This document shows positions 1 to 15,221 of a DNA stretch of 32,042 nt, piece by piece. The DNA is from a virus. Each line of letters starts with the position of its first letter. Positions within the stretch are counted from its first letter, which is position 1. Position numbers and translations under genes: made by a program. The notes below the pieces were generated by a model that searched no databases, was not told the DNA's origin, and saw only the letters and a program-made list of their open reading frames with translations. The DNA is taken from positions 1-32,042 of the IMG/VR virus record IMGVR_UViG_3300040751_003118; one strand, 5' to 3'.

Positions 1-227
1 GGCGCTTGCACGCGTCGATCAATTATCTCATACCCGTCGGGAATTAGATCAAGTCTACCTATTGGTATTGATACGATATTGCGTATCAGGGGTCGAACTG
101 TTTTGAGAACAATCGGAGGATCGCTGGGCATTCTCGGAGGCAGCGTATAAGTCAGCTCTTTCTCTAGCCGTTCTAAAAATTTGGCGTCCCCCTGTATTTG
201 TATTCTGTTCTTTAGAACGGCTTTCAC
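1..227 (-). CDS. Probable phage DEAD/DEAH-type helicase, N-terminal fragment
   Basis: A GTG codon at 227-225 follows a perfect AGGAGG Shine-Dalgarno at 232-237 and opens a frame that runs without a stop off the left edge (75 codons seen). The translation begins MKAVLKNRIQIQG and contains DPPIVLKTVRP, VSIPIGRLDLIP and a YEIIDRR element. I recognise this as the style of N-terminal region found before the motor domain of UvsW/D10-like phage helicases, but no Walker motif is inside the window, so the function is a family-level inference. A different frame over the same bases (55-264) has an ATG but no ribosome site and looks like a shadow. It lies 36 bases after the amidotransferase gene. Confidence 0.55.
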   Translation of the reverse strand, partial: MKAVLKNRIQIQGDAKFLERLEKELTYTLPPRMPSDPPIVLKTVRPLIRNIVSIPIGRLDLIPDGYEIIDRRVQA

Positions 228-263: not shown

Positions 264-1778
264 TTAATATGCTACCTGTCTCAAAAATTCAATATCGAGA
301 TTACGCCATTTCTTTTGCAGATTATCGTGATTATTATCCCAGGGGCTAGACCACCCTGTTTTCTTTGCTCGATACCTGACATGATCGGGGAGAAACTCCT
401 TCATAGTTTCTCGCATAAAATACTTAGTAGTACAACGATCTGCATATTCAGGAAGCTGCTTAAACTTATCCTTACTATTAATACTAATTACATATTTAGC
501 GTAATTTTGAGTAAGAAAAGGAATTCTAGATTCCATTCCAAACATTCCAATAGTTTGGTCTGTTGCTAGAATATTTTGCTCAGAAGTTGTCATCAAGTCT
601 ACAAAAAATGAGTTATTTTGTAAATCAGTACCAAAAACTCCTTTGGGGAACGATGGATCTTTTAGAGAAGTTTTCATTAACCTTTTGCACTGCTCATCAT
701 CGTCTCTTCTATCGTGATGAGTGTACCCAGTAAAAAGTTCATCTCCACTGTCTCCAGTAAGAATTACTTTACAGCCACTTCTTGATGCTGCTTTTGCGAG
801 TAGGTATCGAGGAGCTTGACGGTTACAATCTGCCCACGGGTAGTGTGTATTTGCTAGCCACATTTTACCGTATGAGTATCTATCGTCTCGATCCAATACT
901 ACTTTATTGATGGGAAGACCTAGCCAATCGGCAGTGATTATTGCCATCTGTTTTTCACCATCAAATCCTTCATGTGCCCAATAAGTGGCTTTTTGAGAAA
1001 GATTATACCCACAAGTCCAAAGTTCTACATCAACTTTTTCTTTCGCAAGTATAGAGGCGACAACAGTACTGTCTAATCCTCCAGAAAGAAACATTCCTAG
1101 TTTTTGCTTAGTTTTTGCTACTTTAAGAACGCTTTCTTTTGTTCGTTCAATAAACTCCTCTGGATCAAACTCCGTAGATCTAATTTTGTAACTGTCCCAT
1201 AAATTTCTACGGTAGACTCCTTTCTTCTCGAAGTCGATCTCAAGAATTTCTCCGGGACCTAGTTTATTGATTCCTTTATAGATTGATTCAGACCCAAAAC
1301 ATTGTCCAAAAACTTGGTAAGTATTTAGTTTTTTAGTGTCAATCTCTTTATGAACAAAACTTTTAAGACTTGTTGCAATTGTAAATGCTCCATTTTGCTG
1401 CCCCCACCAGAGAGGCTTTGCACCAAAATGATCACGAACTGCAAAAACTTTTCTTTCTTTTGGCTTGTATAGAACAAAAGCACCTTGCCAGTCAGTATTT
1501 TGTACAAAAGTAAACCCGTACTTATCTAACCCTTTTGCTAGCCATTCTGTATCATTTGCAATTGGAGAATCAAACATTTCTCCATTAAATGCTAGAATAT
1601 TTCCAGCGGGAGTCACATATGGCTGAAACTGTTTTTCTCCATTAATATCAAGTAGAGCATGAGCAATAGCTACATGATCATCTTTCCAAATACGAAACCC
1701 GTCGGGGCCTCGGTGAATTTGTTTTTGCAAAGCAATTTTTGCAATTCCAGGGTTTGTTGTAAATACGAATCCACACAT
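264..1778 (-). CDS. Asparagine synthase (glutamine-hydrolysing)-like amidotransferase
   Basis: This 504-aa protein has both halves of an AsnB-type enzyme. The N-terminus is MCGFVF, putting the class II glutaminase nucleophile Cys at residue 2, followed by RGPDG, LDINGEKQFQP and AFNGEMFD. The second half carries the ATP pyrophosphatase P-loop SGGLDSTVV (about residue 232) and a later GDSGDELFTGY. Known chemistry is ATP-dependent amidation of a carboxylate with glutamine ammonia; the acceptor could be aspartate or a sugar or peptide carboxylate. It is slightly shorter than E. coli AsnB. Its ATG overlaps the stop of the glycosyltransferase gene (TAATG), so it is the last member of a translationally coupled cassette with sulfotransferase and QueC-like genes, which favours a tailoring role over bulk asparagine supply (inference). 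Confidence 0.85.
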   Translation of the reverse strand: MCGFVFTTNPGIAKIALQKQIHRGPDGFRIWKDDHVAIAHALLDINGEKQFQPYVTPAGNILAFNGEMFDSPIANDTEWLAKGLDKYGFTFVQNTDWQGAFVLYKPKERKVFAVRDHFGAKPLWWGQQNGAFTIATSLKSFVHKEIDTKKLNTYQVFGQCFGSESIYKGINKLGPGEILEIDFEKKGVYRRNLWDSYKIRSTEFDPEEFIERTKESVLKVAKTKQKLGMFLSGGLDSTVVASILAKEKVDVELWTCGYNLSQKATYWAHEGFDGEKQMAIITADWLGLPINKVVLDRDDRYSYGKMWLANTHYPWADCNRQAPRYLLAKAASRSGCKVILTGDSGDELFTGYTHHDRRDDDEQCKRLMKTSLKDPSFPKGVFGTDLQNNSFFVDLMTTSEQNILATDQTIGMFGMESRIPFLTQNYAKYVISINSKDKFKQLPEYADRCTTKYFMRETMKEFLPDHVRYRAKKTGWSSPWDNNHDNLQKKWRNLDIEFLRQVAY

Positions 1779-2317
1779 TAAAACTTTAATTCCCTACTAG
1801 CTTGATGTTGTACAATTGCCGGAGCGTGAACATCCATAAAGTCTATTGCAGCATAGTAATCTGGAAGTCTACTCCAAGACTCAGAGTTATGGTTTAAAAT
1901 CTCTGCTAGAGTGATTTGATCCCATTCTTCTGGAGAAGCTTTTTGTGATGTTACCCATTCTTCTGCAATTCGTATTGCATCATCTGTTTTAGGCCAGTAC
2001 ATAGTATTTGCTACTAGCTCCCACTTCGTTCTATCACTAAACTTTACTACAGGACAAAGAATTTGCTTTTTTGTTCTGAAGTATTCCCACTCAATTGGAG
2101 TCATAAATTCAGCATCAGCATCCACATATAGAATACCTTCTTCAGATTCTAGTAAACATTTTAATACAAACTCTGCTTTAATAGCACAGTTTTTAACCCA
2201 GCTTCCTCGACTTGGAATAGCTTCTACATAATGGTTTACATTCCATTTATCCATGGAGGTAAGCAATCTTTGTACTACCTCCGAATATTCTGGAGTATAA
2301 AATGCTACTGCCTTCAT
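1778..2317 (-). CDS. GT-A-like nucleotide-sugar glycosyltransferase
   Basis: The 179-aa protein starts MKAVAFYTPEY and has a GILYVDADAEF segment near residue 83, the DxD-type metal and nucleotide-sugar site of small GT-A transferases, preceded by a KNCAIKAEFVLKCL helix typical of the 'nucleotide-diphospho-sugar transferase' group. It is short, so only the catalytic core is present. The ATG is preceded by GGAGGATACGC and overlaps the sulfotransferase stop (ATGA). Donor and acceptor cannot be predicted. Neighbours (sulfotransferase upstream, AsnB-like downstream) suggest that it builds or decorates a small glycan or modified base together with them. Confidence 0.65.
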   Translation of the reverse strand: MKAVAFYTPEYSEVVQRLLTSMDKWNVNHYVEAIPSRGSWVKNCAIKAEFVLKCLLESEEGILYVDADAEFMTPIEWEYFRTKKQILCPVVKFSDRTKWELVANTMYWPKTDDAIRIAEEWVTSQKASPEEWDQITLAEILNHNSESWSRLPDYYAAIDFMDVHAPAIVQHQASRELKF

Positions 2318-2982
2318 GCGTATCCTCCAATTTCCATATCTTCTGCAAAAAAGTCTTTAACTCTATTCATTAGCGTAGGTGTCCATTTGATTTCTTTTTT
2401 AAAGGCTTCAGGAGATACCATTTGCTTTCTTTCTTCGAGTCCGTATTCTTTCCAGATAGTCTTATCTTCTAGTCTAAAAATCTTGATATTTTCTCTAGGT
2501 GCTTTTCGTGGTAGAAAGTATTTTTGACTGTACATAAGAGGCTTCAGATTTAGAGCAGTAGGAAAATTAACCAGCCACCAATTATATTTTTGCCACTGAT
2601 CAAAGAAAATCTCAATTTTATGTTTTTCATTTGCTTCTAGAGACATTTCTACCCATTCTTCAAAAGGCGTATGCTTAATCATTTTTCTATAACGAAGAAA
2701 CTTATAAGTACTTTCCCATCGAGTAATCGGATGCCTCATTTGTGTTATAAACTGCCAATCTGGGTAATAAGGTTTAAGCATCGTATAACTAGCGTGCTTA
2801 TTATAGATTAAAAGATCTTGCTGAAAATACTCGTATTGAAAAACGGGAGGACGATCGTGCTCCCAATTCCATACTTTTTGACCTGATAAACTTTTATATT
2901 TTATATCAAATGCGTCATCAATTGCACTTCCGCCACATTTCGGAATGTGGATAAAAACTAGTTTCAGTTGTCCAACTAGCAT
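2314..2982 (-). CDS. Sulfotransferase-family protein
   Basis: The 222-aa protein opens with LKLVFIHIPKCGGSAIDDAF, the 5'-phosphosulfate loop that binds PAPS in carbohydrate-type sulfotransferases. About 65 residues later comes MRHPITRWESTYKFLRY, matching the 3'-phosphate binding motif (R.P..R..S.Y). Both cofactor signatures are therefore present and an active PAPS-dependent sulfotransferase is plausible. AGGGG lies just upstream of the ATG. The stop overlaps the glycosyltransferase start. Sulfation of a host envelope sugar or of a phage product is an inference from context; some phage members of this family may act on other substrates. Confidence 0.75.
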   Translation of the reverse strand: MLVGQLKLVFIHIPKCGGSAIDDAFDIKYKSLSGQKVWNWEHDRPPVFQYEYFQQDLLIYNKHASYTMLKPYYPDWQFITQMRHPITRWESTYKFLRYRKMIKHTPFEEWVEMSLEANEKHKIEIFFDQWQKYNWWLVNFPTALNLKPLMYSQKYFLPRKAPRENIKIFRLEDKTIWKEYGLEERKQMVSPEAFKKEIKWTPTLMNRVKDFFAEDMEIGGYA

Positions 2983-2991
2983 TAGTAGCCC

Positions 2992-3483
2992 CTAGACTTT
3001 TCTCCAAGAGTCTCTCTTTTTTGTTGTTGTTGTTTCGTACAGTAACCATGGCAGTCCTCTATCATATAGAATTCCTGCCCATTTTTGTTCTGGCTGGAGA
3101 GGCCGGGTTAGCGTGAATGGAAAGGGTATGTTCTTGACCCACAATACTGTCGCGACTTCCTTCTTTTCTTGCTTTCTTATTCTATGGTATTTTAACTGTA
3201 CATTCCTTCTTTTTTCATAAATAAACGGTCTGCCCAAATAATCAATATAAAACTTTCCTATACGTTTAAATACTGATACTTGGTCAGACAGCATTAAACG
3301 AAGGCTATACAGACTCTTCATCGGAGTCTGCAACCTTCGTATTCCTAGCGTAGCGCCTGGCATATTTCTATCGTCAAGCACTTCATCTTCTATCCAGAGT
3401 ATGCCGTCTATTAATTCAACATTATCTGTGTGTATGGCGAAAATGGGGAATTGGACCTTGCTCAAGTCGTTCACTACGTTCAT
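2992..3483 (-). CDS. Unknown cassette protein, 163 aa
   Basis: I do not recognise this family. Reading from the ATG at 3483 gives MNVVNDLSKVQFPIF, then a region rich in hydrophobic and basic residues (GIRRLQTPMKSLYSLRL, FYIDYLGRPFIYEKRR) and a C-terminal WAGILYDRGLPWLLYE. There is no membrane segment or signal peptide. A TTG six bases upstream would add two residues but has no better ribosome site. The 5' end overlaps the preceding gene by 62 bases, longer than usual here, so a later start is possible though none is obvious. Its position between an unknown GNAT-like protein and the sulfotransferase suggests a role in the same cassette. Confidence 0.7.
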   Translation of the reverse strand: MNVVNDLSKVQFPIFAIHTDNVELIDGILWIEDEVLDDRNMPGATLGIRRLQTPMKSLYSLRLMLSDQVSVFKRIGKFYIDYLGRPFIYEKRRNVQLKYHRIRKQEKKEVATVLWVKNIPFPFTLTRPLQPEQKWAGILYDRGLPWLLYETTTTKKRDSWRKV

Positions 3484-4021
3484 GGGCAAAAATATGATCT
3501 GCCTTTTCTTTGGGCTCTAGCTCTATAACGTAGAGATACCCAGGAAAGCCATATTCATCTACATTTTCACCAATTTTCTTCATATACGGCAGATTATCGA
3601 AGATAGGAGCAACTTCTTTATATACTGTAAACATACCGTTTGCAGCACCATAAATTTCAGTATACCACTCCGGGCTATGTAGACAAATTTCCGCAGTTGA
3701 AGGCGGAAAAAGAGAAATTCGTGGATCTAATACTACTGCTCGATCACAAATAGGATAGAAATATTCTTGACCATCATCGCCGATAGTAATCTGATCTGGC
3801 CATCGAGTTCTATTTACTGCAACAAGCATACCATTGTGCCAAATCATATTAAACCAAGCGTCGTCATCATATTGGTCTACAACTTGCACAAATCTTTTAT
3901 TATGTACAATTAACCCTTCTACTCGAAGGTACATAATCTGTTTGTATTGTTCTAGAGTAAGTTCGTTAAATGGAACACAAATTTTTGTAAAATTTTCAGT
4001 AACTTGCTTAAACATAATCAT
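3422..4021 (-). CDS. Unknown protein with LuxI/FeeM-like (GNAT-fold) features, 199 aa
   Basis: Starting MIMFKQVTENFTKIC, the protein has YLRVEGLIVHNKRF followed by VVDQYDDDAWFNMI, HNGMLVAVNRTR. The order 'R..Y/V near the N-terminus, D.YD..A, then a strand with R' resembles acyl-homoserine-lactone synthase and N-acyl amino acid synthase (FeeM) proteins, which are GNAT-fold acyltransferases. The resemblance is by eye only and could be chance. No signal peptide or membrane segment is visible. It overlaps the upstream gene by 14 bases and the downstream one by 62, so it is transcribed with the SDR-QueC-sulfotransferase cassette. Confidence 0.65.
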   Translation of the reverse strand: MIMFKQVTENFTKICVPFNELTLEQYKQIMYLRVEGLIVHNKRFVQVVDQYDDDAWFNMIWHNGMLVAVNRTRWPDQITIGDDGQEYFYPICDRAVVLDPRISLFPPSTAEICLHSPEWYTEIYGAANGMFTVYKEVAPIFDNLPYMKKIGENVDEYGFPGYLYVIELEPKEKADHIFAHERSERLEQGPIPHFRHTHR

Positions 4022-4430
4022 ACCCTAGCTCAATATAGCTGTGACACCCGCTGGGAGCTGGTCTGTGCTTTCTGATTCCTCCAGGGTAAAGAATAGCAGA
4101 ACCAAAAGGTGCTTGAATAGAATTAGCTTCTTCCGCTTCTTTCCACCAAAATTGCCACATCTGTCTATCTAGCGGAATATAACAAACAACAGGCATTTCA
4201 AAACCGCTGCTGCTCCAGGGAATACTAGTACCTTTTTCATTCCATACAAACTTTCCATTTACATAGTATAGAGGAAGCCTAGACTGTGCGATAATACTAT
4301 CAGAAACTTCAGTCTGAAATGTTTCAATAATATTAGTGTCTTCCGGGTACGCAAACAGGTGCCTACGAAGAAAGTTAAGAAGGTCTCTAGGATAGATATT
4401 CTCGATAAAAAAGGGTCTTTGTAAACTCAT
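4008..4430 (-). CDS. Unknown protein, possible beta-helix/cupin-like, 140 aa
   Basis: The 140-aa product begins MSLQRPFFIENIYPRDLL, as do many small 2OG-Fe(II) oxygenase-like proteins, and ends with GSAILYPGGIRKHRPAP followed by SYIELGYDYV, which looks like the C-terminal strands of a double-stranded beta-helix (a basic residue and His after a 'lyPgg' turn). No clear H-x-D metal motif is present (PVVCYIPLDRQ is at that place), so if it is related to oxygenases it is probably degenerate. Start and stop overlap neighbours by 4 and 14 bases, showing tight coupling with the QueC-like gene upstream. Confidence 0.65.
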   Translation of the reverse strand: MSLQRPFFIENIYPRDLLNFLRRHLFAYPEDTNIIETFQTEVSDSIIAQSRLPLYYVNGKFVWNEKGTSIPWSSSGFEMPVVCYIPLDRQMWQFWWKEAEEANSIQAPFGSAILYPGGIRKHRPAPSGCHSYIELGYDYV

Positions 4431-5200
4431 CTTTTTCTCATACTCTTTGAGTATTCTCCCCAGGTTCTACTATAATACTCTTTTCCTTCTTGGTAGCGAA
4501 ATACGGCATCCGCAGCTAGCCTCTTTGCATTTGTAAGTTCCATGCACTTAAAACATTTTCCACACGGAGCGTAGCCTTTCATTTCGCCATCAACTTTAAT
4601 CTTGCCTTGTGGATTTGGGCAGGTCCAAATTAAGTCTACAGCTTCTGGAGCATATCGCATAATAAGAGCAATTAACTCAGCTTTTGTAAGAAACTCCATT
4701 GGATTTCTAATTTCGGGGGTTCTTTGAAGCGCTTCTAAAGTAACTCCACTACTATCTAGGCAATCACTCATGTAATTTGCCATAATTTTTCGATATTCTC
4801 TCATTTGTAGTCTCCAGCGCATATCATCTTCTGCACTGCCAGCTACAATAAACCACTTCCAAGGATACTGCGAAAAAGTAAGCACATTTGTCATAAAAGA
4901 GGACATTGCAGTAATGATAGGAGCTACAACACCTCCTGCACCCACTGGGATTGAGCTAGAATCCCAGCCAAACGGTACTCCAAAAAATTCTGCTTGAGCT
5001 TGAGAATGCCATCGCATAGCTTCTCCAAACTCACCCGCTTGTGGCATGTACCAATGACCTGCAAAAACTACCATTTCAGGATCATTCATACAATAAATAA
5101 GGTTTGCTAGACTCTCAGTACCGCCGCTCATCGGAAGATAAGTGTTGGTCTTAGGGTCTAAATTGTTCATTAGCTTTGATGCTTCGATTAAACTTTCCAT
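4427..5200 (-). CDS. QueC-like PP-loop ATPase (7-cyano-7-deazaguanine synthase family)
   Basis: The 257-aa protein has a PP-loop motif PMSGGTES near residue 23 and, near the C-terminus, a zinc site made of WTCPNP and APCGKCFKCMELTNAKR, i.e. the C...CGxCxxC arrangement of QueC, along with EFLTKAELIALIM before it as in QueC. QueC converts 7-carboxy-7-deazaguanine to preQ0 with ATP and ammonia. The P-loop is SGGTES instead of the usual SGGLDS and the middle is divergent, so a related adenylating or amidating reaction on a different substrate is possible. No other preQ0 gene (FolE, QueD, QueE) or transglycosylase is visible in the window. The start overlaps the SDR stop by 13 bases. Confidence 0.7.
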   Translation of the reverse strand: MESLIEASKLMNNLDPKTNTYLPMSGGTESLANLIYCMNDPEMVVFAGHWYMPQAGEFGEAMRWHSQAQAEFFGVPFGWDSSSIPVGAGGVVAPIITAMSSFMTNVLTFSQYPWKWFIVAGSAEDDMRWRLQMREYRKIMANYMSDCLDSSGVTLEALQRTPEIRNPMEFLTKAELIALIMRYAPEAVDLIWTCPNPQGKIKVDGEMKGYAPCGKCFKCMELTNAKRLAADAVFRYQEGKEYYSRTWGEYSKSMRKR

Positions 5201-5862
5201 CTATTGCCCGTTATACTTTTTGTAAGATTAATACTATCTCTTAGTTCTTCATACATAACATTAGCAGCAGTTTCTCTTGCTTTATCTACTTCTTCTTTAG
5301 AATTAATCAAGTGAGATACTAATATTTCAGGAATTAAGTATGGTTGTGGAGCAATAAGATTTACTAGAATCATTGCTGCTTCGTATGCAGGAATCATTCC
5401 TCCTTGGGGCACTAATCTAGTATCTACATACCCAAAACTTACATTATGTAGTCTACACTTACTATTTACAGGGTACTCTTGAGAAGCTTCTAGCACATAT
5501 TTAGAAAGCTCTCTTTTTTCTTTTTCATATTGTGAGGCTTCAAAAGTGTTTATATATGCTGCTAGAGAGCCTGTATTAATAATTACCTTTTCTTGCTTTT
5601 TCCACTTCTTATGGAGAGTTCTTAAAAGATTTATCTGAGCATTAGGCATCCAGGCATTATTAAATACAATATCAGGCCCCCACTCTAAAATAGCTTGAGC
5701 AGTTTTTAAGCCTGTTCCTTCAATTAGGTTATAGCCTGTGGAACGACTATACCCACGGACATCATATCCGTGGGTATAGCACCAATCATAAACTTCTTTA
5801 CCAATACCGGAAGTATGTCCGGTAATAGCAACCTTTTTTCGTTTAAGTTTGGGGTAGTTCAT
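5188..5862 (-). CDS. Short-chain dehydrogenase/epimerase-like protein (SDR)
   Basis: From the ATG at 5862, preceded by GAGG six bases upstream, the 224-aa protein reads MNYPKLKRKKVAITGHTSG. The TGHTSGIG sequence is the Rossmann nucleotide-binding TGxxxGIG motif of classical SDRs, and YSRSTGYN follows the second strand. A VIINTGSLAAY block supplies the catalytic Ser region, and SQYEKEKREL supplies the YxxxK pair, so the active-site triad looks intact. It would oxidise, reduce or epimerise an alcohol or sugar with NAD(P). A longer reading frame extends upstream inside the polymerase gene but lacks a ribosome site. It overlaps the polymerase end by 20 bases and is the first gene of the cassette. 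Confidence 0.8.
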   Translation of the reverse strand: MNYPKLKRKKVAITGHTSGIGKEVYDWCYTHGYDVRGYSRSTGYNLIEGTGLKTAQAILEWGPDIVFNNAWMPNAQINLLRTLHKKWKKQEKVIINTGSLAAYINTFEASQYEKEKRELSKYVLEASQEYPVNSKCRLHNVSFGYVDTRLVPQGGMIPAYEAAMILVNLIAPQPYLIPEILVSHLINSKEEVDKARETAANVMYEELRDSINLTKSITGNRWKV

Positions 5863-8125
5863 AACTTTCCTCGTAGTACTCCGACCACTTGCCCATTGAG
5901 TAGTCGTCTCCAACTTCAACGTCGCATCCAACTGGGCAACCGGGAATCGAAATACCTCGGTCTTTTTGGACGTATTCTACTAGAGATTTGCAGTATTCGT
6001 CGACTAAATCCTCACGAACCTCAGCCAGAATAGAGTCATGTACTAGAGCAAAGATTTTTGCATCCATTCCAGTACGCACAATGTGTTTCTGCATATCAAT
6101 TGCCCCAAGCAAATTAATATCAGAGGCTACTGATTGTACTAGAAAGTTGATTCCACTTCTTACTTCGTGTGATGCGATCCCTTGGTCCTTACTTTGAGCG
6201 TTCGGCAGCCTGCGTTTTCGACCAAGCTGGCTATAAATAAATGCGTTATTCTTAATGAAAGCAGCAGAATTATCTAACCAGCTACGAAGATTCGGGAACG
6301 CTTTGAAGTAGTCTTTAATTACTTCGGCAGCATCATTAATTGAAAACTCGGTTCCTGAATCTTTTGTGACCTGCCAACTAATTTTAGCAGGTCCAGCACC
6401 ATACATAATACCAAAGGTTACTGCTTTAGCTTGTTGACGCTTTGCTTTATAAAGAGTATCGACTTCTTCCACATCGCAAGGAAGTTTGAACACTTGCTTG
6501 GCAATGGTAGAGTGAAAGTTGCCTCCTGTTCGAAAAACATCCATCAAGCCTTTGTCTTTAGCTAATACTGCGGCAACATATACTTCAGCAGTAGTTAAGT
6601 CCATTGCAACAATCTTATAGCCTGGACGAGCTTTAATACACCCTTTTACTGTGGGATTATCCCGAGGGAGCTGTTGCATATTTAGTTTGCCAGAGGAAGA
6701 TAGACGACCCGACGTAGTACCGTGAAGATTAAAACCAGTACGAAGTCGGCCATCCCGATCTAGATTCGCAAGAATCTTATCAAGATACGTCGTCTTGATC
6801 TTCATTTTTTGGCGAATATCCAAAATTAGCTTGGGGACTTCGTGCTGTTCAGCCAATTCAGCTAGAACTTCTGCATCAGTGGAATCAGCGCCTGTACCCG
6901 TTTTCTTACCCGTTGGGGTTAAGCCAATATAATCGTACAAGAGCTTACGAAGCTGCGCAGTACTATTAGGGTTGAAATTCTTCCCTTCTAGTTGTTCAAA
7001 CTTTTTAACTTCTGGATACTCATACAGACGAGTAACGGCATTCTCAATATCTTGTGTCATCGTCTGCTGACCTAACCGAAGTCGATCTTCGTCAAACGGA
7101 ACACCATTAGATTCAATTTGCTTTAGAAAGTTACAGCCAGGAATAAGGATGTTTTCATACACCCAAGTAAGCTGCTTATTCTTAGCAAGAGCAGGGCTCA
7201 TTTTTTGATACAACGCAAAAGTAACAACAGCATCCATTGCTGCGTACTTATACATTACGTCAAAAGGAATTAAATCATAACTAAAATCTTCTTTGAGAAT
7301 ACCATGTTTACGCCGGTATTCAGCACTCCAATCTTCTAGCTCCTTTTCATAATCGCCATAAGGCGTATGCTTCAGAGCTAGAGTTTTGAGACCGTGAGTG
7401 CCTGGATTTTCGTCAAACATATAGTGCATAAGCATAGTATCATCAAACTTAGGGAATTTAAAGTTGAAGTGATACTCAAACCACTGCAAATCGAATTTTG
7501 CATTGTGGAATACTACAGTTTTACGATTGAATAGCTCCTGAAAAAGAGCCTCGACTTCTTCATCTACAACTTCTACGTCAATGTATGCGCCATGGTCAGG
7601 CTCGTAAGCCAAACAAATGCCTAGCATATATCCGTCTCGACAAGCAAGAGCAGAAGTTTCTGAGTCAAGTGCGATGAAGTCATAAGGAGCCTCAAGTGCA
7701 TTTTTCAAATATGAAACACACTGCTCCTTAGTCTTAATACCGTAACACTTATCTTCTCCAAGCTGCATTTGTGTGAGATCACCAGAGACATAGCCACTAA
7801 TACTCTCTACAGCATCTTCAAAGGCTTTCTTTACTTCAGGCTTGAATTTAATTGCAGCCGGACTAACAAGCCCCAAAAACTTTTTATCAATAATCTTACC
7901 ATTATATTCCGTAATGGAACTTTTACGAGTAAAATGCTTGAAAGGCTCAGACCCGACTAGAATAATCCACTCATACTTATCAACGTCGATTTCAAGATCA
8001 ACGTCTTTTTTCATTACCTTTTTTACTCCACTATCGGAACAGAGAGCAAATCTCTGAAACTCAAAAGGAAAGTACTTGTCAAAGTTGACAGAAGAAGGCT
8101 TTGATTCAATAAGAGCGATTGACAT
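5843..8125 (-). CDS. polA: Family A DNA polymerase with 3'-5' exonuclease
   Basis: The 760-aa protein is a Pol I-type replicative polymerase without a 5'-nuclease domain. The proofreading domain shows Exo I (FIALDSETSAL), Exo II (VFHNAKFDLQWF) and Exo III (YAAMDAVVTF). The polymerase domain has motif A with VAMDLTTAEVYV (Asp and Glu conserved; the usual DYSQIELR is divergent), motif B RQQAKAVTFGIMYG (R, K, F, Y all in place) and motif C ALVHDSILAEV. The residue equivalent to E. coli Phe762 is Phe. The ATG overlaps the primase stop (TAATG), so primase and polymerase are translated together. It replicates the phage genome with the DnaB-like helicase encoded upstream. Confidence 0.95.
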   Translation of the reverse strand: MSIALIESKPSSVNFDKYFPFEFQRFALCSDSGVKKVMKKDVDLEIDVDKYEWIILVGSEPFKHFTRKSSITEYNGKIIDKKFLGLVSPAAIKFKPEVKKAFEDAVESISGYVSGDLTQMQLGEDKCYGIKTKEQCVSYLKNALEAPYDFIALDSETSALACRDGYMLGICLAYEPDHGAYIDVEVVDEEVEALFQELFNRKTVVFHNAKFDLQWFEYHFNFKFPKFDDTMLMHYMFDENPGTHGLKTLALKHTPYGDYEKELEDWSAEYRRKHGILKEDFSYDLIPFDVMYKYAAMDAVVTFALYQKMSPALAKNKQLTWVYENILIPGCNFLKQIESNGVPFDEDRLRLGQQTMTQDIENAVTRLYEYPEVKKFEQLEGKNFNPNSTAQLRKLLYDYIGLTPTGKKTGTGADSTDAEVLAELAEQHEVPKLILDIRQKMKIKTTYLDKILANLDRDGRLRTGFNLHGTTSGRLSSSGKLNMQQLPRDNPTVKGCIKARPGYKIVAMDLTTAEVYVAAVLAKDKGLMDVFRTGGNFHSTIAKQVFKLPCDVEEVDTLYKAKRQQAKAVTFGIMYGAGPAKISWQVTKDSGTEFSINDAAEVIKDYFKAFPNLRSWLDNSAAFIKNNAFIYSQLGRKRRLPNAQSKDQGIASHEVRSGINFLVQSVASDINLLGAIDMQKHIVRTGMDAKIFALVHDSILAEVREDLVDEYCKSLVEYVQKDRGISIPGCPVGCDVEVGDDYSMGKWSEYYEESYELPQT

Positions 8126-8964
8126 TATCCGTATAACCGTTTTTTCAGTCTGTTAATTTGGTCTACCGTAAGATTACCGGGGTCGGTATTGTCTGGTAGT
8201 GTTATCACTTGAACTGATAATTCCATTTCTTCAGCTAGTGTTTTTACTTGTTGTGCTGCTTTCTTGCCTGCTGGATCTCCATCAAACATAATGTCGATAC
8301 CAGTAACTCCTTGGAGTTTTAATAAAGAAAGTTTTACCCAATCCACTTGCTGTGTGCCAAAACAACACACGGTATTTTTTAAGCCTTTGTCCCAAAGATT
8401 AAGAGCATCAAAAATACCTTCAACTAGAATAACTCTATTGCGAACGGGTTTAACCTTAGCAGGACAAAGAGGCATCTTCACACCGTGAGGATAAATATAA
8501 TATTTATTCTCACCGATACCACTAATAAGTCTGCCAAGAAGTGCTACAGTTTTTCCTCTAACATCTCGAATAGGAAAAATAATTCGACCCTCAAATTTAG
8601 GTACGTTCCAAGTGAACGCTTGCCAGATTTTCAAAGTTTCCTCTGAAATGTTTCGAAAACCACCTCCTTTCCACTCTATGCGATCTTCCGGCAGTTTTAG
8701 TCCTACAGTTGAGGCTCGGGTTTTTGCTATCTTCTCTTTGATTCGATGAACTCGAACTTCGGAAGGACTAGCTGGGGCTCCAAAGTATGTAAAGATGTTG
8801 CCTTTGAAGCCACAAGAAAAGCAGTGCATTGTACCAGTAATTTTATCGACCCTGAGAGACGGATTAGAATCGTCATGCTCTGGATTTAGACACTGAATGA
8901 GAGCGTCTCTTCCTTTTACGGAAAACTGGATGCCTTTCTCTTGTAAGAGATCTACTGCTATCAT
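8125..8964 (-). CDS. DNA primase (zinc finger and TOPRIM)
   Basis: The 279-aa protein has a primase zinc site, CLNPEHDDSNPSL then MHCFSCGF (C-H-C-C), in the first 60 residues. A TOPRIM domain follows with VILVEGIFDALNLW (catalytic Glu) and GIDIMFDGDPAGKKA (DxD). It is half the length of DnaG and lacks a helicase-binding tail, as in small phage primases. It would lay RNA primers for the polymerase encoded immediately downstream. A consensus promoter ends 7 bases before the ATG and there is no room for a Shine-Dalgarno sequence, so the message from that promoter should be leaderless or nearly so. No other suitable start is seen, and the zinc site needs this N-terminus. Confidence 0.92.
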   Translation of the reverse strand: MIAVDLLQEKGIQFSVKGRDALIQCLNPEHDDSNPSLRVDKITGTMHCFSCGFKGNIFTYFGAPASPSEVRVHRIKEKIAKTRASTVGLKLPEDRIEWKGGGFRNISEETLKIWQAFTWNVPKFEGRIIFPIRDVRGKTVALLGRLISGIGENKYYIYPHGVKMPLCPAKVKPVRNRVILVEGIFDALNLWDKGLKNTVCCFGTQQVDWVKLSLLKLQGVTGIDIMFDGDPAGKKAAQQVKTLAEEMELSVQVITLPDNTDPGNLTVDQINRLKKRLYG

Positions 8965-8971
8965 AACAACT

Positions 8972-9010
8972 ATTATACCAGGCTAGGGAGGTTTTGTCAA
9001 GAACTATTTT
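8972..9010 (-). promoter_or_regulatory. Promoter P1 (consensus family), leaderless primase start
   Basis: On the minus strand: conserved upstream box AAAATAGTTC (9010-9001), -35 TTGACA (9000-8995), 17-nt spacer, -10 TATAAT (8977-8972). The expected start site (about 8965) coincides with the primase ATG at 8964. The stop codon of the upstream methyltransferase (9004-9006) is the TAG inside the upstream box. Confidence 0.9.
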
Positions 9011-9576
9011 TTAAAAACTAGTCTTTCTCCACGACCTCTCGCTTCTAAATAAATTAACTCAGTATGGCAAGTTTGATGTTTACGAATTTTTTCTTCCCAC
9101 CATTCTTTTGATTTGATAGTTACATGAGCATTACTGCCATCACTAAGCTTGGCTCTAGCAAGATAAGAAGCTACCGTTGCAAAGACAAACTGTGTTCCTC
9201 CACTATACCAATATTCTAAAACTTCATCAATCCTTTCTTCTGGAATGTGTTCTAGAACATCTGCACTTACTACTGACTGAAACTCATGGGGTTCAGGTGC
9301 TTTTGAGTATGCAGGAATTCCAATATCAAATAGAATAATCTTCTCGATGTCCCAGAGTTTATGAATCTCTCTAGTCTTATATGAGTATGCTTTTCCGCAA
9401 CCAAAATCCAACATAGTAGTGCCCGGAAACTGCCGAGTAAGATCTTGAACATTCCATGTCCAGAGCATCATCTGCTCGCCTATCATACTCAACTTATCTT
9501 TCCTAGAATGAATTTCAGTATATTCTTCAATCATTCTTTTAGTGGCAAAGTCTGATACTTTTACATTAAGGTCCAT
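9004..9576 (-). CDS. Class I SAM-dependent methyltransferase (paralogue 1)
   Basis: The 190-aa protein has the SAM-binding motif I MLDFGCGKAYSY and a later VVSADVLEHIPEERIDEVL, the acidic motif and post-motif helix of Rossmann methyltransferases. The element KLSDGSNAHVTIKSKEWW is shared, nearly residue for residue in layout, with the protein at 17456-18022, so the two are paralogues. The catalytic target is unknown; this type is frequent in tailed phages. The ATG at 9576 has only a weak ribosome site and overlaps the end of a 54-aa gene by 11 bases. The stop codon is buried in promoter P1. Confidence 0.8.
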   Translation of the reverse strand: MDLNVKVSDFATKRMIEEYTEIHSRKDKLSMIGEQMMLWTWNVQDLTRQFPGTTMLDFGCGKAYSYKTREIHKLWDIEKIILFDIGIPAYSKAPEPHEFQSVVSADVLEHIPEERIDEVLEYWYSGGTQFVFATVASYLARAKLSDGSNAHVTIKSKEWWEEKIRKHQTCHTELIYLEARGRGERLVFKK

Positions 9577-9730
9577 TATAAAATTCCAGAGAGCCTTCCC
9601 AAATTAGCCAACGAATGTAGAAATTATGTTCACCCCAAGTCGGCTCTGTATCATATACTAGTGTGGGTAGAAAGTAAAAAGTTTTTTCATACTTCCACAG
9701 ATTATTCAAGTTAAACGTGTATCCTTTCAT
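9566..9730 (-). CDS. Small unknown protein, 54 aa
   Basis: This reading frame fills the gap between the peroxiredoxin and methyltransferase genes exactly: its ATG overlaps the peroxiredoxin stop (ATGA) and its TAA overlaps the methyltransferase start. The product starts MKGYTFNLNNLWKYEKTF and is very rich in aromatic residues (five Trp, five Tyr), with TEPTWGEHNFYIRWLIW near the end. No family is recognised. The coupling geometry matches that of real genes in this genome, which is the main support. Confidence 0.65.
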   Translation of the reverse strand: MKGYTFNLNNLWKYEKTFYFLPTLVYDTEPTWGEHNFYIRWLIWEGSLEFYNGP

Positions 9731-10302
9731 ACTCTATCCAAAATATACTCTGGGTTGGTATAGAAGTAAGGATCTTCTTTACAATTATCCTCCTTACCTC
9801 CTTCAATAAACCATTTTTCAACTCGTCCATTATTTAGTACAACAGCATACCGCCAAGAGCGCCGTCCAAAGCCTAGATTCTCTTTGTCCACGAGCATATC
9901 CATTCCTTCAGTAAAATCGGCGTTTCCATCAGGAATTGGCTTGACGTTCTGTACTCCCTGCATTTCGAACCACTTATTCATTACAAACGTATCATTTACC
10001 GAAACACAGTAAATCTCATCAATACCTTTCTTTTGAAACTCTGGATATAGTGCATCAAAATTAGGAAGTTGATAGGTCGAGCAGGTAGGAGTAAAAGCTC
10101 CTGGGAGAGAAAAGATAATTACTCGCTTACCTGCTACGAAATCAAAAGTCGTTTTTGCTTCCCAACGAAAAGGGTTGGGGCCTTCAATACTTTCATCACG
10201 CACTCGAGTATGAAAAATCATGTTCGGCACGAGTTGAGGAAGCTGCCTCCATGAGTACTCAGTGTAATCCTCTAGATCATCTTCGTGGGTGTAAATTTCC
10301 AT
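9727..10302 (-). CDS. Peroxiredoxin (Prx5-like)
   Basis: The 191-aa protein contains FSLPGAFTPTCSTYQLPNF near residue 90, the PGAFTPTCS active site with the peroxidatic Cys characteristic of the atypical 2-Cys Prx5/AhpE-like group. DEIYCVSVNDTFVMNKW then matches the following strand-helix unit. Further Cys residues (EIYC, DNC near the C-terminus) could serve as resolving thiols. It would reduce peroxides in the infected cell using thioredoxin or glutaredoxin. No thioredoxin gene is seen here. The ATG at 10302 has GGAG ten bases upstream and overlaps the ParB-like gene by 26 bases. It is an unusual accessory gene for a phage and may protect replication or the oxygen-using enzymes of this genome. 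Confidence 0.85.
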   Translation of the reverse strand: MEIYTHEDDLEDYTEYSWRQLPQLVPNMIFHTRVRDESIEGPNPFRWEAKTTFDFVAGKRVIIFSLPGAFTPTCSTYQLPNFDALYPEFQKKGIDEIYCVSVNDTFVMNKWFEMQGVQNVKPIPDGNADFTEGMDMLVDKENLGFGRRSWRYAVVLNNGRVEKWFIEGGKEDNCKEDPYFYTNPEYILDRV

Positions 10303-10804
10303 CTAAAACTCCTTTATGTTCCCAGGGGAGTTCATCCCCTAATTTTTCAAATTCTGTCATTGGTATATTACTAGGGTCTTTCTCGTCAATATAATACTGA
10401 CTTTTCCAAGCTAGTTCGATTGTCTGAAACCAAACAGCAATTGCTTTATTCCTAAACTCTAAGTCCCCCCAAAGATAAAAACAGTTCCAGTATTCTTTGT
10501 CAAATCTTGCAACTCGAATTGGCTGAAAAAGCACTGGATGACTTGGCTCTCTTAGCTTTAGATCAAAACAAGCTCTAAGTCTTTGGCTTCCTACAATTGG
10601 ATACCAACTTGGCATTGTAAGTATAGGAGCTTTAATGCCATGCTCGCTTACACTTTCTAAAAGTTTATCATTTAGAGGAACTCTGCCAATATTTTGCCAA
10701 ATTTCTGCTTCGTGTAATAATTCTTCAGGGGTTCTAACGTACCAGGTAGTTGGAGGAATTGCTACTACTTCACCTGTTCCTCTACTGATTCTATCGTACG
10801 CCAT
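10277..10804 (-). CDS. ParB/sulfiredoxin-fold protein, 175 aa
   Basis: In the 175-aa product, VSEHGIKAPILTMPSW is followed by YPIVGSQRLRACFDLKL, matching the ParB N-terminal layout 'i...Gi..PI.v....y.ivdG.rRl.Aa..lg'. The arginine following GSQ would sit in the nucleotide-binding loop. No HTH DNA-binding half is seen, so it is probably a stand-alone CTPase- or nuclease-type ParB domain, and not a partition protein. Similar layouts occur in 11520-12242 and 28261-28677. The ATG at 10804 has a poor ribosome site and may be coupled to a 41-aa frame ending at 10765. Confidence 0.6.
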   Translation of the reverse strand: MAYDRISRGTGEVVAIPPTTWYVRTPEELLHEAEIWQNIGRVPLNDKLLESVSEHGIKAPILTMPSWYPIVGSQRLRACFDLKLREPSHPVLFQPIRVARFDKEYWNCFYLWGDLEFRNKAIAVWFQTIELAWKSQYYIDEKDPSNIPMTEFEKLGDELPWEHKGVLDGNLHPRR

Positions 10805-10890
10805 TCTACTGTTCCGTCCGTATAAATAAAGGCTGTTCTAGCCCCGTAATTAACTATGCTCAATAAGATTCTTGAAGGGGAAGATTTCAT
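10765..10890 (-). CDS. Possible small protein, 41 aa
   Basis: An ATG-initiated frame bridges the 45-base gap between thyX and the ParB-like gene, overlapping both by about 40 bases. The product begins MKSSPSRILLSIVNYGA and contains FIYTDGTVEWRTIESVEEQ, a protein-like strand pattern. The ribosome site is weak and most of the frame overlaps other genes, so this is a candidate only. It would explain how the ParB-like gene, which has no good Shine-Dalgarno, is translated (coupling). Confidence 0.4.
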   Translation of the reverse strand: MKSSPSRILLSIVNYGARTAFIYTDGTVEWRTIESVEEQVK

Positions 10891-11530
10891 AGATTACTTT
10901 ACCAATCTCTTGAGCTATGTCGATGTGCTCTTTTTGAGTACCGTTTGCTCCTCTTAGCTCGATGTAATGAATCCAACTCCTCAGAGTCCCATTCATGTAC
11001 ATCCGACTCACCGTATTGCCCTCGGGTAAAACTACTCTTGCTTGCTCTTTTGCGATACCATTTTGGGTGGCCCATTGATATGCTTCCTTTGCTTTATCAA
11101 TTACTTCTTGTTGGCGTTTTTGCCATTCAACATCAAGTTCAGAGTCAATACCGTCGTCAATACTATTCTGACGGTTTTTAGGATCTTGAAGTCTTGTTTC
11201 TCTAATTTCAAAACTCAACTCCGTGGTTGGGTCTGCGTAACGCTGGGAAAATTCTTGGAAGCTAAACGATCGGTGCCGTAATATTTGTCTCGCAATGTCT
11301 CTGGTGGTTTCGATCTCCATACAAACAGAGACCATTTCAAAAGGCGACCAATGTTTGTGTTTAATTAAGTATTTAAGCAATTTTTCAGAAGTTTCAGTAT
11401 TCATCTGATTACTAGGATTGCTTACGCGAGCAGCATAGGCAACTAAATTTTGCAAACTATAGGGCATGGGTTCATCTTCCAGAGGATTACCTCTGTGGCC
11501 CACACTATAACTAATTAATTTAACTTTCAT
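10850..11530 (-). CDS. thyX: Flavin-dependent thymidylate synthase ThyX
   Basis: The 226-aa protein carries the diagnostic ThyX motif RHRSFSFQEFSQRY (RHRxxSxxxxSxRY) near residue 83 and later RMYMNGTLRSWIHYIELR, the substrate-binding region. ThyX makes dTMP from dUMP with methylene-tetrahydrofolate and FAD, supporting phage DNA synthesis. The length is normal for the family. The ATG at 11530 overlaps the previous gene by 11 bases. Since ThyX normally makes thymine itself, its presence does not by itself indicate modified pyrimidines. Confidence 0.95.
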   Translation of the reverse strand: MKVKLISYSVGHRGNPLEDEPMPYSLQNLVAYAARVSNPSNQMNTETSEKLLKYLIKHKHWSPFEMVSVCMEIETTRDIARQILRHRSFSFQEFSQRYADPTTELSFEIRETRLQDPKNRQNSIDDGIDSELDVEWQKRQQEVIDKAKEAYQWATQNGIAKEQARVVLPEGNTVSRMYMNGTLRSWIHYIELRGANGTQKEHIDIAQEIGKVIYEIFPFKNLIEHS

Positions 11531-12242
11531 ATTTTGGCCTGTAATATAACCTGTCCCATCTTTCTGGGCTATAGTTAAAAAAGTATTGTAAGAATAATTG
11601 ATAAATACCTATTACATCAAAAATCTCGTAATGATCTTGATCACTGTGGGTAGTTCCAATGCTGTAAAATTTTTCGTTTGCTACCCAAGGAGTAAACCCA
11701 GTTTTTCTAGAGAGAAAGTCCCACTTATTTTTTAAGTATTTGTCCTTTAAAGGAATGTGCGTTACAAATAAATTATCAAAAGTATGCAAGTCGTATTGAT
11801 CTTCCCATGCAGGGGGAACATTACTTCGATGCTGCATTCTCCATCTTATATCTCTATTTCCTTTGTGGTCTCTTTCTAGTGGTTTGATTCCATTAAAAAG
11901 TCCTTCATATTGTTTTCTACTTTTACAATGAAAGTCAATTACCCAGCCTTTGAGAGGGCGTTCCGGTAAAAGTTTTCTAAGCAAAACTCTATTTAAACCA
12001 GGATGAATCTTAAAATTTTTTGTTGTAACGTTTGACCAAACCAATACTGGATCTACAAAGCCTTCTCGAAGAACAGAATCTATAAAGTAATAAAGTCTCC
12101 ATGCAATTCTAGTTTTATTATGATTTAGCCATCTTTTTACTTTAGGGTCTGGAGGAAGCTGACTTAGTACTTTTTCATCTATATCAATTTCAAAAAGAGC
12201 ACAGCGGTATTGTTCAAATGAAGTATGGTTATAAGTCATCAT
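11520..12242 (-). CDS. ParB-like-fold candidate, 240 aa
   Basis: The start is taken as the ATG at 12242 (MMTYNHTSFEQ); a GTG at 12251 would add three residues. The section GFVDPVLVW then NFKIHPGLNRVLL and GWVIDF has the layout of a ParB/Srx core ('dPvlV....y.i..G.nR.....l....v..vv'), with GLNR in the place of the GxxR loop. The C-terminal half is aromatic and unassigned (HTFDNLFVTHIPLKDKYL; THSDQDHYEIFDVIGIY). The function is unknown. It sits between helicase and thyX, overlapping both, which suggests a replication or nucleotide-related role (inference). Confidence 0.6.
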   Translation of the reverse strand: MMTYNHTSFEQYRCALFEIDIDEKVLSQLPPDPKVKRWLNHNKTRIAWRLYYFIDSVLREGFVDPVLVWSNVTTKNFKIHPGLNRVLLRKLLPERPLKGWVIDFHCKSRKQYEGLFNGIKPLERDHKGNRDIRWRMQHRSNVPPAWEDQYDLHTFDNLFVTHIPLKDKYLKNKWDFLSRKTGFTPWVANEKFYSIGTTHSDQDHYEIFDVIGIYQLFLQYFFNYSPERWDRLYYRPKYES

Positions 12243-13593
12243 AGCTTTCACCAGTTCCCATCATTTCTTCTTTCATCTTCTGTCGCTCGTCAGGGTCCAT
12301 TGCACTGTTCGGACCAATCTTCAAGCAGTCCCAATCAATTTCAGATATGAAAGATTGCATTTCACCACTACGCATTTTATCACAGCGGAACTTGATACAG
12401 TTTTCTTCTCTGCCCCAATGTTGAAGGGTATAAGCAGCATCAACAGCGTCAAGAATACCTTTTGAGAATCTTGCGTTACCTTGAACATCTGTTTGAAAAG
12501 CAGAAATTACTAGACAGTTTTGTTCTTGTGCTAGAGCTTTGAGACCTTTACTAATCTCAATTTGCTCAGTCCACTCATACTGTCCTCCTTTACTTGGAGC
12601 GTTGTGACGACGCACCTGGTTTAGATAGTCAACTACTACTAGTCCGAGATCAGGATATTGTACTTTCTTTTGACGAACCGTACTAATAACCTTTGCAAGA
12701 GTCAGAGAAGGATCATAAAATACTTCTAGCTGATTTTCTTTTTTCAGGGAATAGTTACGGCTGAGATCATAATGAAACTTATCAAACTCTTGGCTGAGAT
12801 CATACTTTGAAAGAATATCTTCGGCTCCTTCAAACCGATCTGCCCACCATTGTCCGATTTTAGTCCATTCTTTATCGAATAGGTTGCGTTTCATTAGACG
12901 ACCAAGAGGGATACCCGTACTCATTGCAGCCATACGCTGCAAGATTGGACGAGTGTCCATTTCGATCGTAAAGTAAAGGACAGAATGCCCGCGCTCTCTA
13001 GCACTCACTGCAATGTTACAGCAAGTAAATGACTTACCATGACCACGTTGCGCCCCCACAACGACCAAGTCTCTGGGAGAGAAGGTATAATTCAGGTCAT
13101 AATCAGTGTTAAGTCCAAGAGGTAGATACTGGGAAAGTTCTTCTTCAGAATCGAAAAGCTCAATATCTTCCATAGACTCGCTGTCTGTAGAAGTATCTAC
13201 TTTATCTTGCACTTGCACTACGATTTCTTGCAAAGCGTCAATATTTTCTTTAGCATCTGCAAGCGTAATAGTATTGTCGAGAAAAAACTCGATACGGGAT
13301 AGGATTTCAGATTGAGTAAACTGATCTTTTAGGTACTCTAGCAGCTCTCCTGCTGGAGTATCTGTTTCGACAGCCTCTATCGCATAAATCTTTTCTTGAA
13401 GCTCACGCGAACGCACTTCGTATTTGAGATTCTCAAACGAAGGTAGAGCTTGAAACTTATGAACGTGCTTATCTACTATCTTCCAGAGCTTTTGATAATC
13501 GCCCTCGGGTAGATAGTGTTGTTTAAGCCTATTCCAAGTCTCAAAATCGTTATGCGATAAAAGTTGCTTGAGCAGCGCGCTCTCAATTGCCAT
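12229..13593 (-). CDS. Replicative DnaB/gp41-like DNA helicase
   Basis: The start chosen is the ATG at 13593 (MAIESALLKQLL), which has GGGAGAG five to eleven bases upstream; a TTG at 13605 overlaps that ribosome site and is less likely. The 454-aa protein has Walker A VVGAQRGHGKSFTCCN near residue 190, FTIEMDTRPILQRMA (the helix after motif 1a of DnaB), Walker B LGLVVVDYLNQV, and VISAFQTDVQGNARFSKGI, the motif H4 region. The N-terminal 130 residues resemble a DnaB N-domain. It unwinds DNA for the primase and polymerase encoded downstream. The gene follows a UUCG-capped hairpin that may attenuate its transcription. Confidence 0.93.
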   Translation of the reverse strand: MAIESALLKQLLSHNDFETWNRLKQHYLPEGDYQKLWKIVDKHVHKFQALPSFENLKYEVRSRELQEKIYAIEAVETDTPAGELLEYLKDQFTQSEILSRIEFFLDNTITLADAKENIDALQEIVVQVQDKVDTSTDSESMEDIELFDSEEELSQYLPLGLNTDYDLNYTFSPRDLVVVGAQRGHGKSFTCCNIAVSARERGHSVLYFTIEMDTRPILQRMAAMSTGIPLGRLMKRNLFDKEWTKIGQWWADRFEGAEDILSKYDLSQEFDKFHYDLSRNYSLKKENQLEVFYDPSLTLAKVISTVRQKKVQYPDLGLVVVDYLNQVRRHNAPSKGGQYEWTEQIEISKGLKALAQEQNCLVISAFQTDVQGNARFSKGILDAVDAAYTLQHWGREENCIKFRCDKMRSGEMQSFISEIDWDCLKIGPNSAMDPDERQKMKEEMMGTGESYDDL

Positions 13594-13600
13594 GTTCTCT

Positions 13601-13639
13601 CCCAAAGAAAAGCAGAGAGGACCGAAGCCCCCTCTGCTT
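13601..13639 (-). terminator. UUCG-capped terminator or attenuator before the helicase gene
   Basis: The minus strand can form a 13-bp stem (13639-13627 with 13622-13610: AAGCAGAG and GGGGC, with two G-U pairs) closed by a TTCG tetraloop at 13626-13623 and followed by TTTTCTTT. It lies between the HTH-repeat gene and the helicase ATG. The U-tract is interrupted, so partial read-through, lowering helicase relative to the HTH protein, is likely. Confidence 0.75.
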
Positions 13640-13660
13640 GACTAGACAAACAACGCGCTA

Positions 13661-14377: not shown

Positions 14378-14382
14378 TTTAT

Positions 14383-15144: not shown

Positions 15145-15170
15145 TTACTTTCCCTCATTTCTATTTATAT

Positions 15171-15210
15171 ATTATATCGAAACTTTTACCATATGTCAAG
15201 AACTTTTTTG
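15171..15210 (-). promoter_or_regulatory. Promoter P2 (consensus family)
   Basis: Minus strand: AAAAAAGTTC box (15209-15200, one base different from the other five copies), -35 TTGACA (15199-15194), 17-nt spacer, -10 TATAAT (15176-15171). The start site near 15164 gives a leader of about 20 nt with GAGGG before the ligase C-half ATG. It lies just downstream of the small 47-aa gene. Confidence 0.88.
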
Positions 15211-15221
15211 GGGAAGCTGCC

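Follow-up and report, generated by a model that had tools for sequence, protein, structure and literature searches.

An eight-gene stretch in a T5-type replication operon

The DNA analysed here, referred to as the window, is a whole IMG/VR virus record of 32,042 bases (IMGVR_UViG_3300040751_003118). Nearly all of its genes are carried by the minus strand. A reading made from the letters alone, which we call the sequence-only reading, had singled out eight genes behind the DNA polymerase gene as a biosynthetic cassette. The minus strand does contain all eight open reading frames (ORFs), from the ATG of a short-chain dehydrogenase (SDR) gene at 5862 to the stop codon of an AsnB-like gene at 264. 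In order of transcription, they encode the SDR, a PP-loop ATPase, a protein of 140 amino acids (aa), a GNAT-like protein, a 165-aa protein, a sulfotransferase, a glycosyltransferase and the AsnB-like amidotransferase. Coordinates and supporting matches are in Table 1. Pfam and PHROG gave no confident name for the GNAT-like, 140-aa and 165-aa proteins of the window. Homologues of all but the 140-aa ORF were found at the same positions in dozens of contigs. Because these homologues are in place, and because catalytic motifs persist, the ORFs are genes and not chance reading frames.

As the sequence-only reading had noted, the genes are nearly all coupled by overlaps. The SDR gene overlaps the end of the polymerase gene, and the junctions after it measure −13, −4, −14, −68, +9, −4 and −1 bases (the −68 value was computed with a TTG start for the 165-aa ORF). 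Counted from the polymerase, seven of the eight junctions overlap and the remaining one is a 9-base gap. In relatives, genes overlap or abut at 319 of the 395 junctions between polymerase and helicase. Hence, we did not take overlap by itself as a sign of a common pathway; most junctions overlap in these phages whatever the genes.

Table 1. Features of the polymerase-to-helicase region, in window coordinates.
Feature	Position	Strand	Evidence
T5-type DNA polymerase, bounds the insert on one side	5843..8125	-	phrog_17 1.9e-150; 46% to Demerecviridae phages
SDR (classical short-chain dehydrogenase, FabG-like motif type)	5188..5862, alternative start 5931	-	Pfam adh_short 4.9e-6
PP-loop ATPase, QueC/Cap9-like, core gene	4427..5200	-	phrog_1550 3.4e-8; AlphaFold2 model and Foldseek; motif counts
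140-aa protein, probable degenerate c24-family member	4008..4430	-	hhalign P 5e-4; alignment; slot position
GNAT-fold acyltransferase, ElaA/LuxI/FeeM type, long form, core gene	3422..4021	-	AlphaFold2 model; Foldseek; profile to 1xeb
165-aa T5-type replication-module protein (phrog_4386)	2992..3489	-	Profile matches to Eos, Providencia and Proteus proteins
PAPS-type sulfotransferase, variable accessory	2314..2982	-	phrog_3347 7.8e-5; IPKCGG and RHPITRW motifs
GT-A-like glycosyltransferase (VDADAE motif), variable accessory	1778..2317	-	Pfam Nucleotid_trans 8.6e-4, below its cut-off
AsnB-like glutamine-dependent amidotransferase (predicted), core gene shortly before the helicase	264..1778	-	Pfam Asn_synthase 2e-35; TIGR01536 8e-56, below cut-off
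Replication helicase, 5' end, bounds the insert on the other side	3..227	-	Cluster g9/c14; Eos96 ~40% identical to relatives

The 165-aa gene is an ancestral part of the replication module

The window polymerase is 46% identical to that of T5-type phages, and it was used to find 80 marine-type loci in viral contigs. The order of the module is ligase B, D5-like, DnaB, primase, polymerase, 165-aa protein, helicase, SbcD and SbcC. This is also the order in Eos, Proteus phage PL1 and Providencia phage PSTCR5, across the stretches read in those phages. In all three, no other gene separates the polymerase gene from that of a small protein, or the latter from the helicase gene; neighbours abut or overlap. 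A profile of the 165-aa family matched proteins of Eos (Eos97, 1e-10), the Proteus phage (1e-5) and the Providencia phage (1.6e-11), each encoded directly after the DNA polymerase. The gene was present in 40/40 marine loci spanning polymerase to helicase. Taken together, the empty site in three T5-type phages and the profile matches identify the 165-aa gene as an ancestral gene of the T5-type replication module. It lies outside the biosynthetic insert, and the other seven genes were inserted on either side of it. The sequence-only reading had counted this protein (2992-3489) among the pathway members; its profile and position remove it from the list. Comparison with T5-type phages is a way to tell replication genes from inserted accessory genes in a widespread marine group.

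The NAD-dependent DNA ligase of the window is encoded by two separate genes (14383-15144 and 18965-19903), as in T5-type phages.

Insert content is partly constant and partly variable

Gene content was counted in the 40 marine loci that span polymerase to helicase, the window included. Some of these are near-duplicates, and the fetched loci comprise about 25 distinct polymerase lineages. The core genes are those for the AsnB-like protein (40 loci), the GNAT (39) and the PP-loop protein (28). A small protein, c8, is encoded in 38/40 loci. The variable genes encode the SDR (19 loci), the sulfotransferase (14) and the glycosyltransferase (7). Oxygenase-like families c22 and c24 were found in 19 and 17 loci, respectively, and the 140-aa gene in one, the window itself. 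A neighbourhood comparison had been proposed alongside the sequence-only reading, with independent occurrence in relatives as the outcome that would speak against a single pathway. The core trio recurs among the 40 loci, but the other inserted genes come and go, and the SDR, sulfotransferase, glycosyltransferase and 140-aa genes do occur independently. The eight genes are not one inherited eight-gene pathway; seven of them are modular insertions.

In one subclade, the SDR gene is the first inserted gene after the DNA polymerase. Its motifs are kept in relatives (TGxxxGIG in 31/32, YxxxK in 32/32), and the RxPxxR motif of 3'-phosphoadenosine 5'-phosphosulfate (PAPS)-type enzymes is present in 51/51 sulfotransferases. 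The 140-aa protein has no clear relatives elsewhere. It matched a 16-member profile of the c24 family weakly (hhalign P = 5e-4), and its gene sits in the c24 slot between the PP-loop and GNAT genes. The c24 family is double-stranded-beta-helix/2-oxoglutarate (2OG)-oxygenase-like, and alignment shows that the 140-aa protein is without its conserved WH. To judge from these likenesses, the 140-aa gene is probably a decayed or repurposed member of c24. The PHROG label 'ferrochelatase' for c24 was treated as unreliable.

At least six oxygenase-like genes (2OG, TauD or JmjC-like, by eye or by Pfam) lie within the 32 kb of the window, at 18019-18612, 19900-20697, 24459-25103, 25752-26516, 26504-27031 and 31655-32041.

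A pattern of this kind could arise if separate accessory genes gather at permissive spots between replication genes, each with its own job. The SDR, sulfotransferase, glycosyltransferase, oxygenase and 140-aa genes vary freely, and junctions overlap or abut irrespective of the gene. A slot elsewhere, between LigN, the N part of the split NAD-ligase, and a carbamoyltransferase gene, likewise gathers varied genes. The behaviour of the PP-loop and GNAT genes bears on this explanation from the other side.

PP-loop and GNAT genes are paired at two sites

A GNAT gene lies within two genes of the PP-loop gene in 38/44 cases fetched with the polymerase. Of the six exceptions, four are PP-loop genes at a different site (three adjoin a radical SAM gene and one is at a contig edge) and two, in L056 and L058, are without a GNAT nearby. 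A second neighbour count, 88/90, was biased by GNAT-based fetching and was set aside.

Scanning with the GNAT profile revealed a second site, site B, with the gene order LigN, GNAT, radical SAM, PP-loop, carbamoyltransferase, SGNH and ligase. In a separate scan with a site-B PP-loop protein, the GNAT-radical SAM-PP-loop trio was found in 13/13 new loci. The site-B PP-loop genes form one clade (97/97 support). Three genomes (G050, G051 and G052) hold pairs at both sites, and thus two GNAT and two PP-loop genes each. In G012, the PP-loop gene falls in the site-B clade and the only GNAT gene in the site-A clade. Hence, a genome in which the pair has been split still has one gene of each kind.

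The pairing at two unrelated sites, the double pairs in three genomes and the kept split pair are our main reason for proposing that the PP-loop and GNAT genes share a function. They also speak against the gathering of separate genes with separate jobs, which we consider rather unlikely. Of the single pathway first proposed, one part is supported: PP-loop, GNAT and AsnB-like genes recur together over many polymerase lineages, and the PP-loop/GNAT pair recurs at a second site. Its extension to all eight genes is not.

In the window, 15337-19903 is a second accessory hot-spot, with the split NAD-ligase N part, a 2OG oxygenase, a methyltransferase, a NodU/TobZ-type carbamoyltransferase and a DUF6071-like protein. 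Relatives have the GNAT-radical SAM-PP-loop genes where this hot-spot lies.

The PP-loop protein resembles Cap9 but departs from canonical QueC

The AlphaFold2 model of the PP-loop protein is confident (predicted local distance difference test score, pLDDT, 88). Its top Foldseek match in the PDB is Cap9 of the type IV cyclic-oligonucleotide-based anti-phage signalling system (CBASS; 9nto_B, E 3.3e-5, TM-score 0.69 on target), followed by TtuA. A C-terminal zinc motif, C(x)nCxxCxxC, is present in 58/58 PP-loop proteins and takes the form CxnCxxCxKC in the window. Fold and zinc motif agree with the QueC-like label given from sequence alone. The canonical QueC loop SGGxDS was found in 0/58 proteins; SGGxE(S/C), or its SAG form, was found in 54/58. 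Motifs YxQxHxxE, VPxRN and YPDC, which mark canonical QueC (PMC13329287), were found in 0/58 each. The protein is a QueC-like enzyme, probably one with a different substrate. It had no match in cultured phages (tblastn) or in 85,000 genomes.

QueC enzymes serve 7-deazaguanine DNA, and the insert is embedded among polymerase, primase and helicase genes. Both facts fit an alternative in which the phage DNA is protected by a modified base that these enzymes make or attach. A TobZ/NodU-kind O-carbamoyltransferase (window 16095-17459), conserved nearby in many relatives, fits too; a phage member of this family carbamoylates 5-hydroxymethylcytosine (PMC8670742). Conversely, the SGGxDS loop and the substrate motifs of QueC are missing from all 58 PP-loop proteins. 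Moreover, searches of partial records, in which absence is no proof, returned no TGT/transglycosylase (PF01702, 0/48), no thymidylate-synthase-type hydroxymethylase (PF00303, 0/48) and no QueD (PF01242, 0/23). We consider DNA hypermodification unlikely, and the canonical routes to a modified nucleoside, one of the products put forward in the sequence-only reading, found no backing in these records.

No hydroxymethylase that would go with the carbamoyltransferase was found (partial records). The window encodes a ThyX-like thymidylate synthase (10850-11530); among the 80 polymerase-fetched loci this was found only here and in a close relative, L003.

Two defence systems make use of QueC-family proteins (PMC13279940, PMC13329287), and the best structural match of the phage protein, Cap9, comes from one of them. 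It might then be a Cap9/QatC relative that interferes with QueC-family immunity, for example by competing for a nucleobase or a partner protein. We regard such counter-defence as very improbable. PADLOC gave no match for the window proteins, the PP-loop protein included. All members retain the zinc motif, as an active enzyme would, and biosynthesis accounts better for the partnership with an acyltransferase and the occurrence at two sites. Cap9 and QatC are protein-deazaguanylating enzymes, and their partners (a CD-NTase or QatB) have a modifiable N-terminal glycine; rows of the GNAT alignment (A1), the one neighbour checked, do not start Met-Gly, and no partner was identified.

The GNAT-like protein and a phage acyl carrier protein

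The GNAT-like protein was also modelled with confidence (pLDDT 89). Foldseek matches in the PDB were 1xeb (TM 0.75 on target), ElaA, EsaI (E 8e-6), LasI (7e-5) and FeeM (5e-3). These bear out the LuxI/FeeM-like features described earlier for one of the unknown proteins. The closest viral model is an annotated N-acyl-homoserine lactone (AHL) synthetase of Roseobacter phage RDJL Phi 2. By sequence profile, the family reaches 1xeb at 1e-9 and ElaA at 8e-5. The canonical coenzyme A (CoA) loop, R/QxxGxG/A, had any match in 5/73 GNATs, two of them N-terminal and three at a non-conserved spot. Residues R33, F37, D52 and D155 are conserved in alignment A1. There are two forms of the protein, long (~200 aa, as in the window) and short (~160 aa). 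The short form had no match in cultured phages.

A gene for acyl carrier protein (ACP) lies directly after SbcC in 11/48 records (G001, G002, G003, G004, G006, G007, G008, G017, G020, G021 and G032). It was found in 11/11 long-GNAT contigs that reach far enough past SbcC, as judged by SbcC positions. Conversely, it was found in 0/6 short-GNAT contigs (G009, G011, G012, G014, G015 and G039; G011 was assigned by lineage, its own contig showing no GNAT). The window ends before this place, so its link to ACP rests on its long-GNAT lineage. The GxDSL attachment motif is intact in 11/11 of the phage ACPs. Elsewhere, ACP is the acyl donor for PF13444 acyltransferases (OlsB-type), N-acyl amino acid synthases and AHL synthases, and 3-hydroxyacyl-ACP is supplied by FabG (PMC11631085). 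Phage ACPs as such are already known (PMC11705849).

The AsnB-like protein

The Cys2 glutaminase residue and the motifs SGGxDS and G(D/E)(S/G)xDE are present in 41/41 AsnB-like proteins. The family matches 1ct9 at 1.3e-24. Against the asparagine synthase model TIGR01536 it scored 190 bits (8e-56), below the cut-off of 267, and matches to other amidotransferases were weaker still. The predicted function is glutamine-dependent amidation. Relatives in genomes were only generic copies of 23-31% identity. Near these copies there was one marginal PP-loop match, and homologues of the GNAT, c24 and 165-aa proteins were not found.

In contig L174, the neighbours of a distant AsnB-like relative are genes for a radical SAM enzyme, a DegT-type aminotransferase and a GDP-mannose-dehydratase-like protein. 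Such company suits an alternative in which amidation, sulfation, glycosylation and carbamoylation alter the host lipopolysaccharide or capsule while infection proceeds, for example blocking superinfection. The sulfotransferase, glycosyltransferase and NodU-like carbamoyltransferase would serve this purpose, and some relatives encode a sugar-phosphate nucleotidyltransferase (TIGR02199 4e-22). However, by its TGxxxGIG motif the SDR is a classical one, not one of the extended, sugar-epimerase type. A majority of the loci with the core lack sulfotransferase and glycosyltransferase, and no transport or polymerisation gene was recognised. We consider surface-glycan remodelling improbable.

L174 is a marine phage-like contig in a Porticoccaceae metagenome-assembled genome, and its radical SAM-AsnB-aminotransferase-dehydratase cassette occupies 7054-13026. 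A query with the AsnB protein of L174 found only five phage loci. The contig also encodes a cupin 70% identical to one in the phage group studied here, which suggests gene exchange. In a relative, L086 (contig of L062), curli/CsgG-like, FecR-like and CHASE2-like genes (by eye) lie beside structural genes at 13184-16665.

A modular insert with a candidate acyl-amide core

Our preferred reading is a modular insert in a T5-type replication operon, of which the GNAT, PP-loop and AsnB-like core most likely acts on one substrate in an acyl-amide pathway. We give this a probability of roughly 0.55. Two insertion hot-spots flank the old 165-aa gene in the replication operon of these uncultured marine phages. 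From the observed gene content, folds, motifs, recurrent pairing, two-site occurrence and co-occurrence with ACP, we infer that the three enzymes may act in sequence, what each of them would do, that acyl-ACP may be used, and that the substrate may be a free small molecule, a lipid or a macromolecule. The PP-loop enzyme would activate a carboxylate with ATP and hand it to an amine or ammonia. The GNAT would move an acyl group onto an amine, with ACP as the donor in the long-GNAT lineage of the window. The AsnB-like enzyme would amidate a further carboxylate using glutamine. The SDR, oxygenases, sulfotransferase, glycosyltransferase or radical SAM enzyme may then tailor the product differently from phage to phage.

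Several points weigh against this. On their contigs, L056 and L058 show a PP-loop gene but no GNAT, and L066 and L067 show the reverse; all four are partial. In trees, both the GNAT and the PP-loop protein of the window are on long branches. Matches of the GNAT to PF13444 are weak (best 0.0039, 8/26 members) and below the family cut-off. The AsnB-like gene is universal in the group; hence, its co-occurrence with the GNAT says little. According to work cited in PMC11705849, E. coli ACP supports MukBEF, a structural maintenance of chromosomes (SMC) complex. By analogy, the phage ACP, whose gene adjoins that of the SMC-like SbcC, may serve SbcCD instead of acyl transfer. The presence of ACP tracks the split between long and short GNATs, which is also phylogenetic, and could be lineage inheritance.

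A narrower and more tentative proposal confines the system to two enzymes. Here, the GNAT and PP-loop proteins would form an undescribed ATP-driven acyl-conjugation system of marine phages. Its task would be to mark a nucleotide, a lipid or a protein with an acyl amide while the phage replicates. It would join an SGGxE-loop branch of QueC to a LuxI-like acyltransferase, perhaps with the phage ACP feeding one lineage; we consider this rather unlikely.

QueC-family enzymes are known from tRNA modification, DNA modification and two anti-phage systems. If our reading is true, phages would have a branch of the family of their own, with a changed phosphate loop and a link to an acyltransferase, and this would bring a new chemistry to the family. 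We found no literature description of a characterised phage pathway with this gene set, in line with the sequence-only reading. Because of the pairing, the puzzle can be tested with two or three genes in place of eight.

Comparison with known systems

The phage PP-loop protein has in common with the QueC family (PF06508, including Cap9 and QatC) a Rossmann-like PP-loop fold, the zinc motif and a length of ~220-270 aa. It differs in its SGGxE(S/C) loop, in the absence of QueC substrate motifs (0/58) and in its constant GNAT neighbour. In the partial records, no queD or TGT gene was found.

With AHL synthases and FeeM-type N-acyl amino acid synthases, the phage GNAT shares a GNAT-like fold without the canonical acyl-CoA P-loop, and ACP is present in the same phage lineage as the long GNAT. 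However, its closest solved structures are ElaA-type GNATs instead, and identity to both the ElaA-type structures and AHL synthases is only 11-19%. The OlsB-type aminolipid N-acyltransferases (PF13444) are matched weakly, and a FabG-like SDR and ACP occur in the same phage lineage. Conversely, the phage matches to PF13444 are below the cut-off and no OlsA-type O-acyltransferase was recognised.

The AsnB-like protein has the Cys2, SGGxDS and acidic motifs of AsnB-type amidotransferases (41/41), but is only ~23-31% identical to other phage or cellular copies. The N-acetylglutaminylglutamine amide pathway uses the same three chemistries, namely acyl transfer, ATP-driven ligation and amidation. 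This is an analogy only: the match to TIGR03104 (9e-27) is far below the 570-bit cut-off, and the ligase of that pathway is an ATP-grasp enzyme, not a PP-loop enzyme.

Finally, the marine phages have in common with the Demerecviridae (Eos, PL1 and PSTCR5) the gene order of the replication module. They differ in the genes added to either side of the 165-aa gene.

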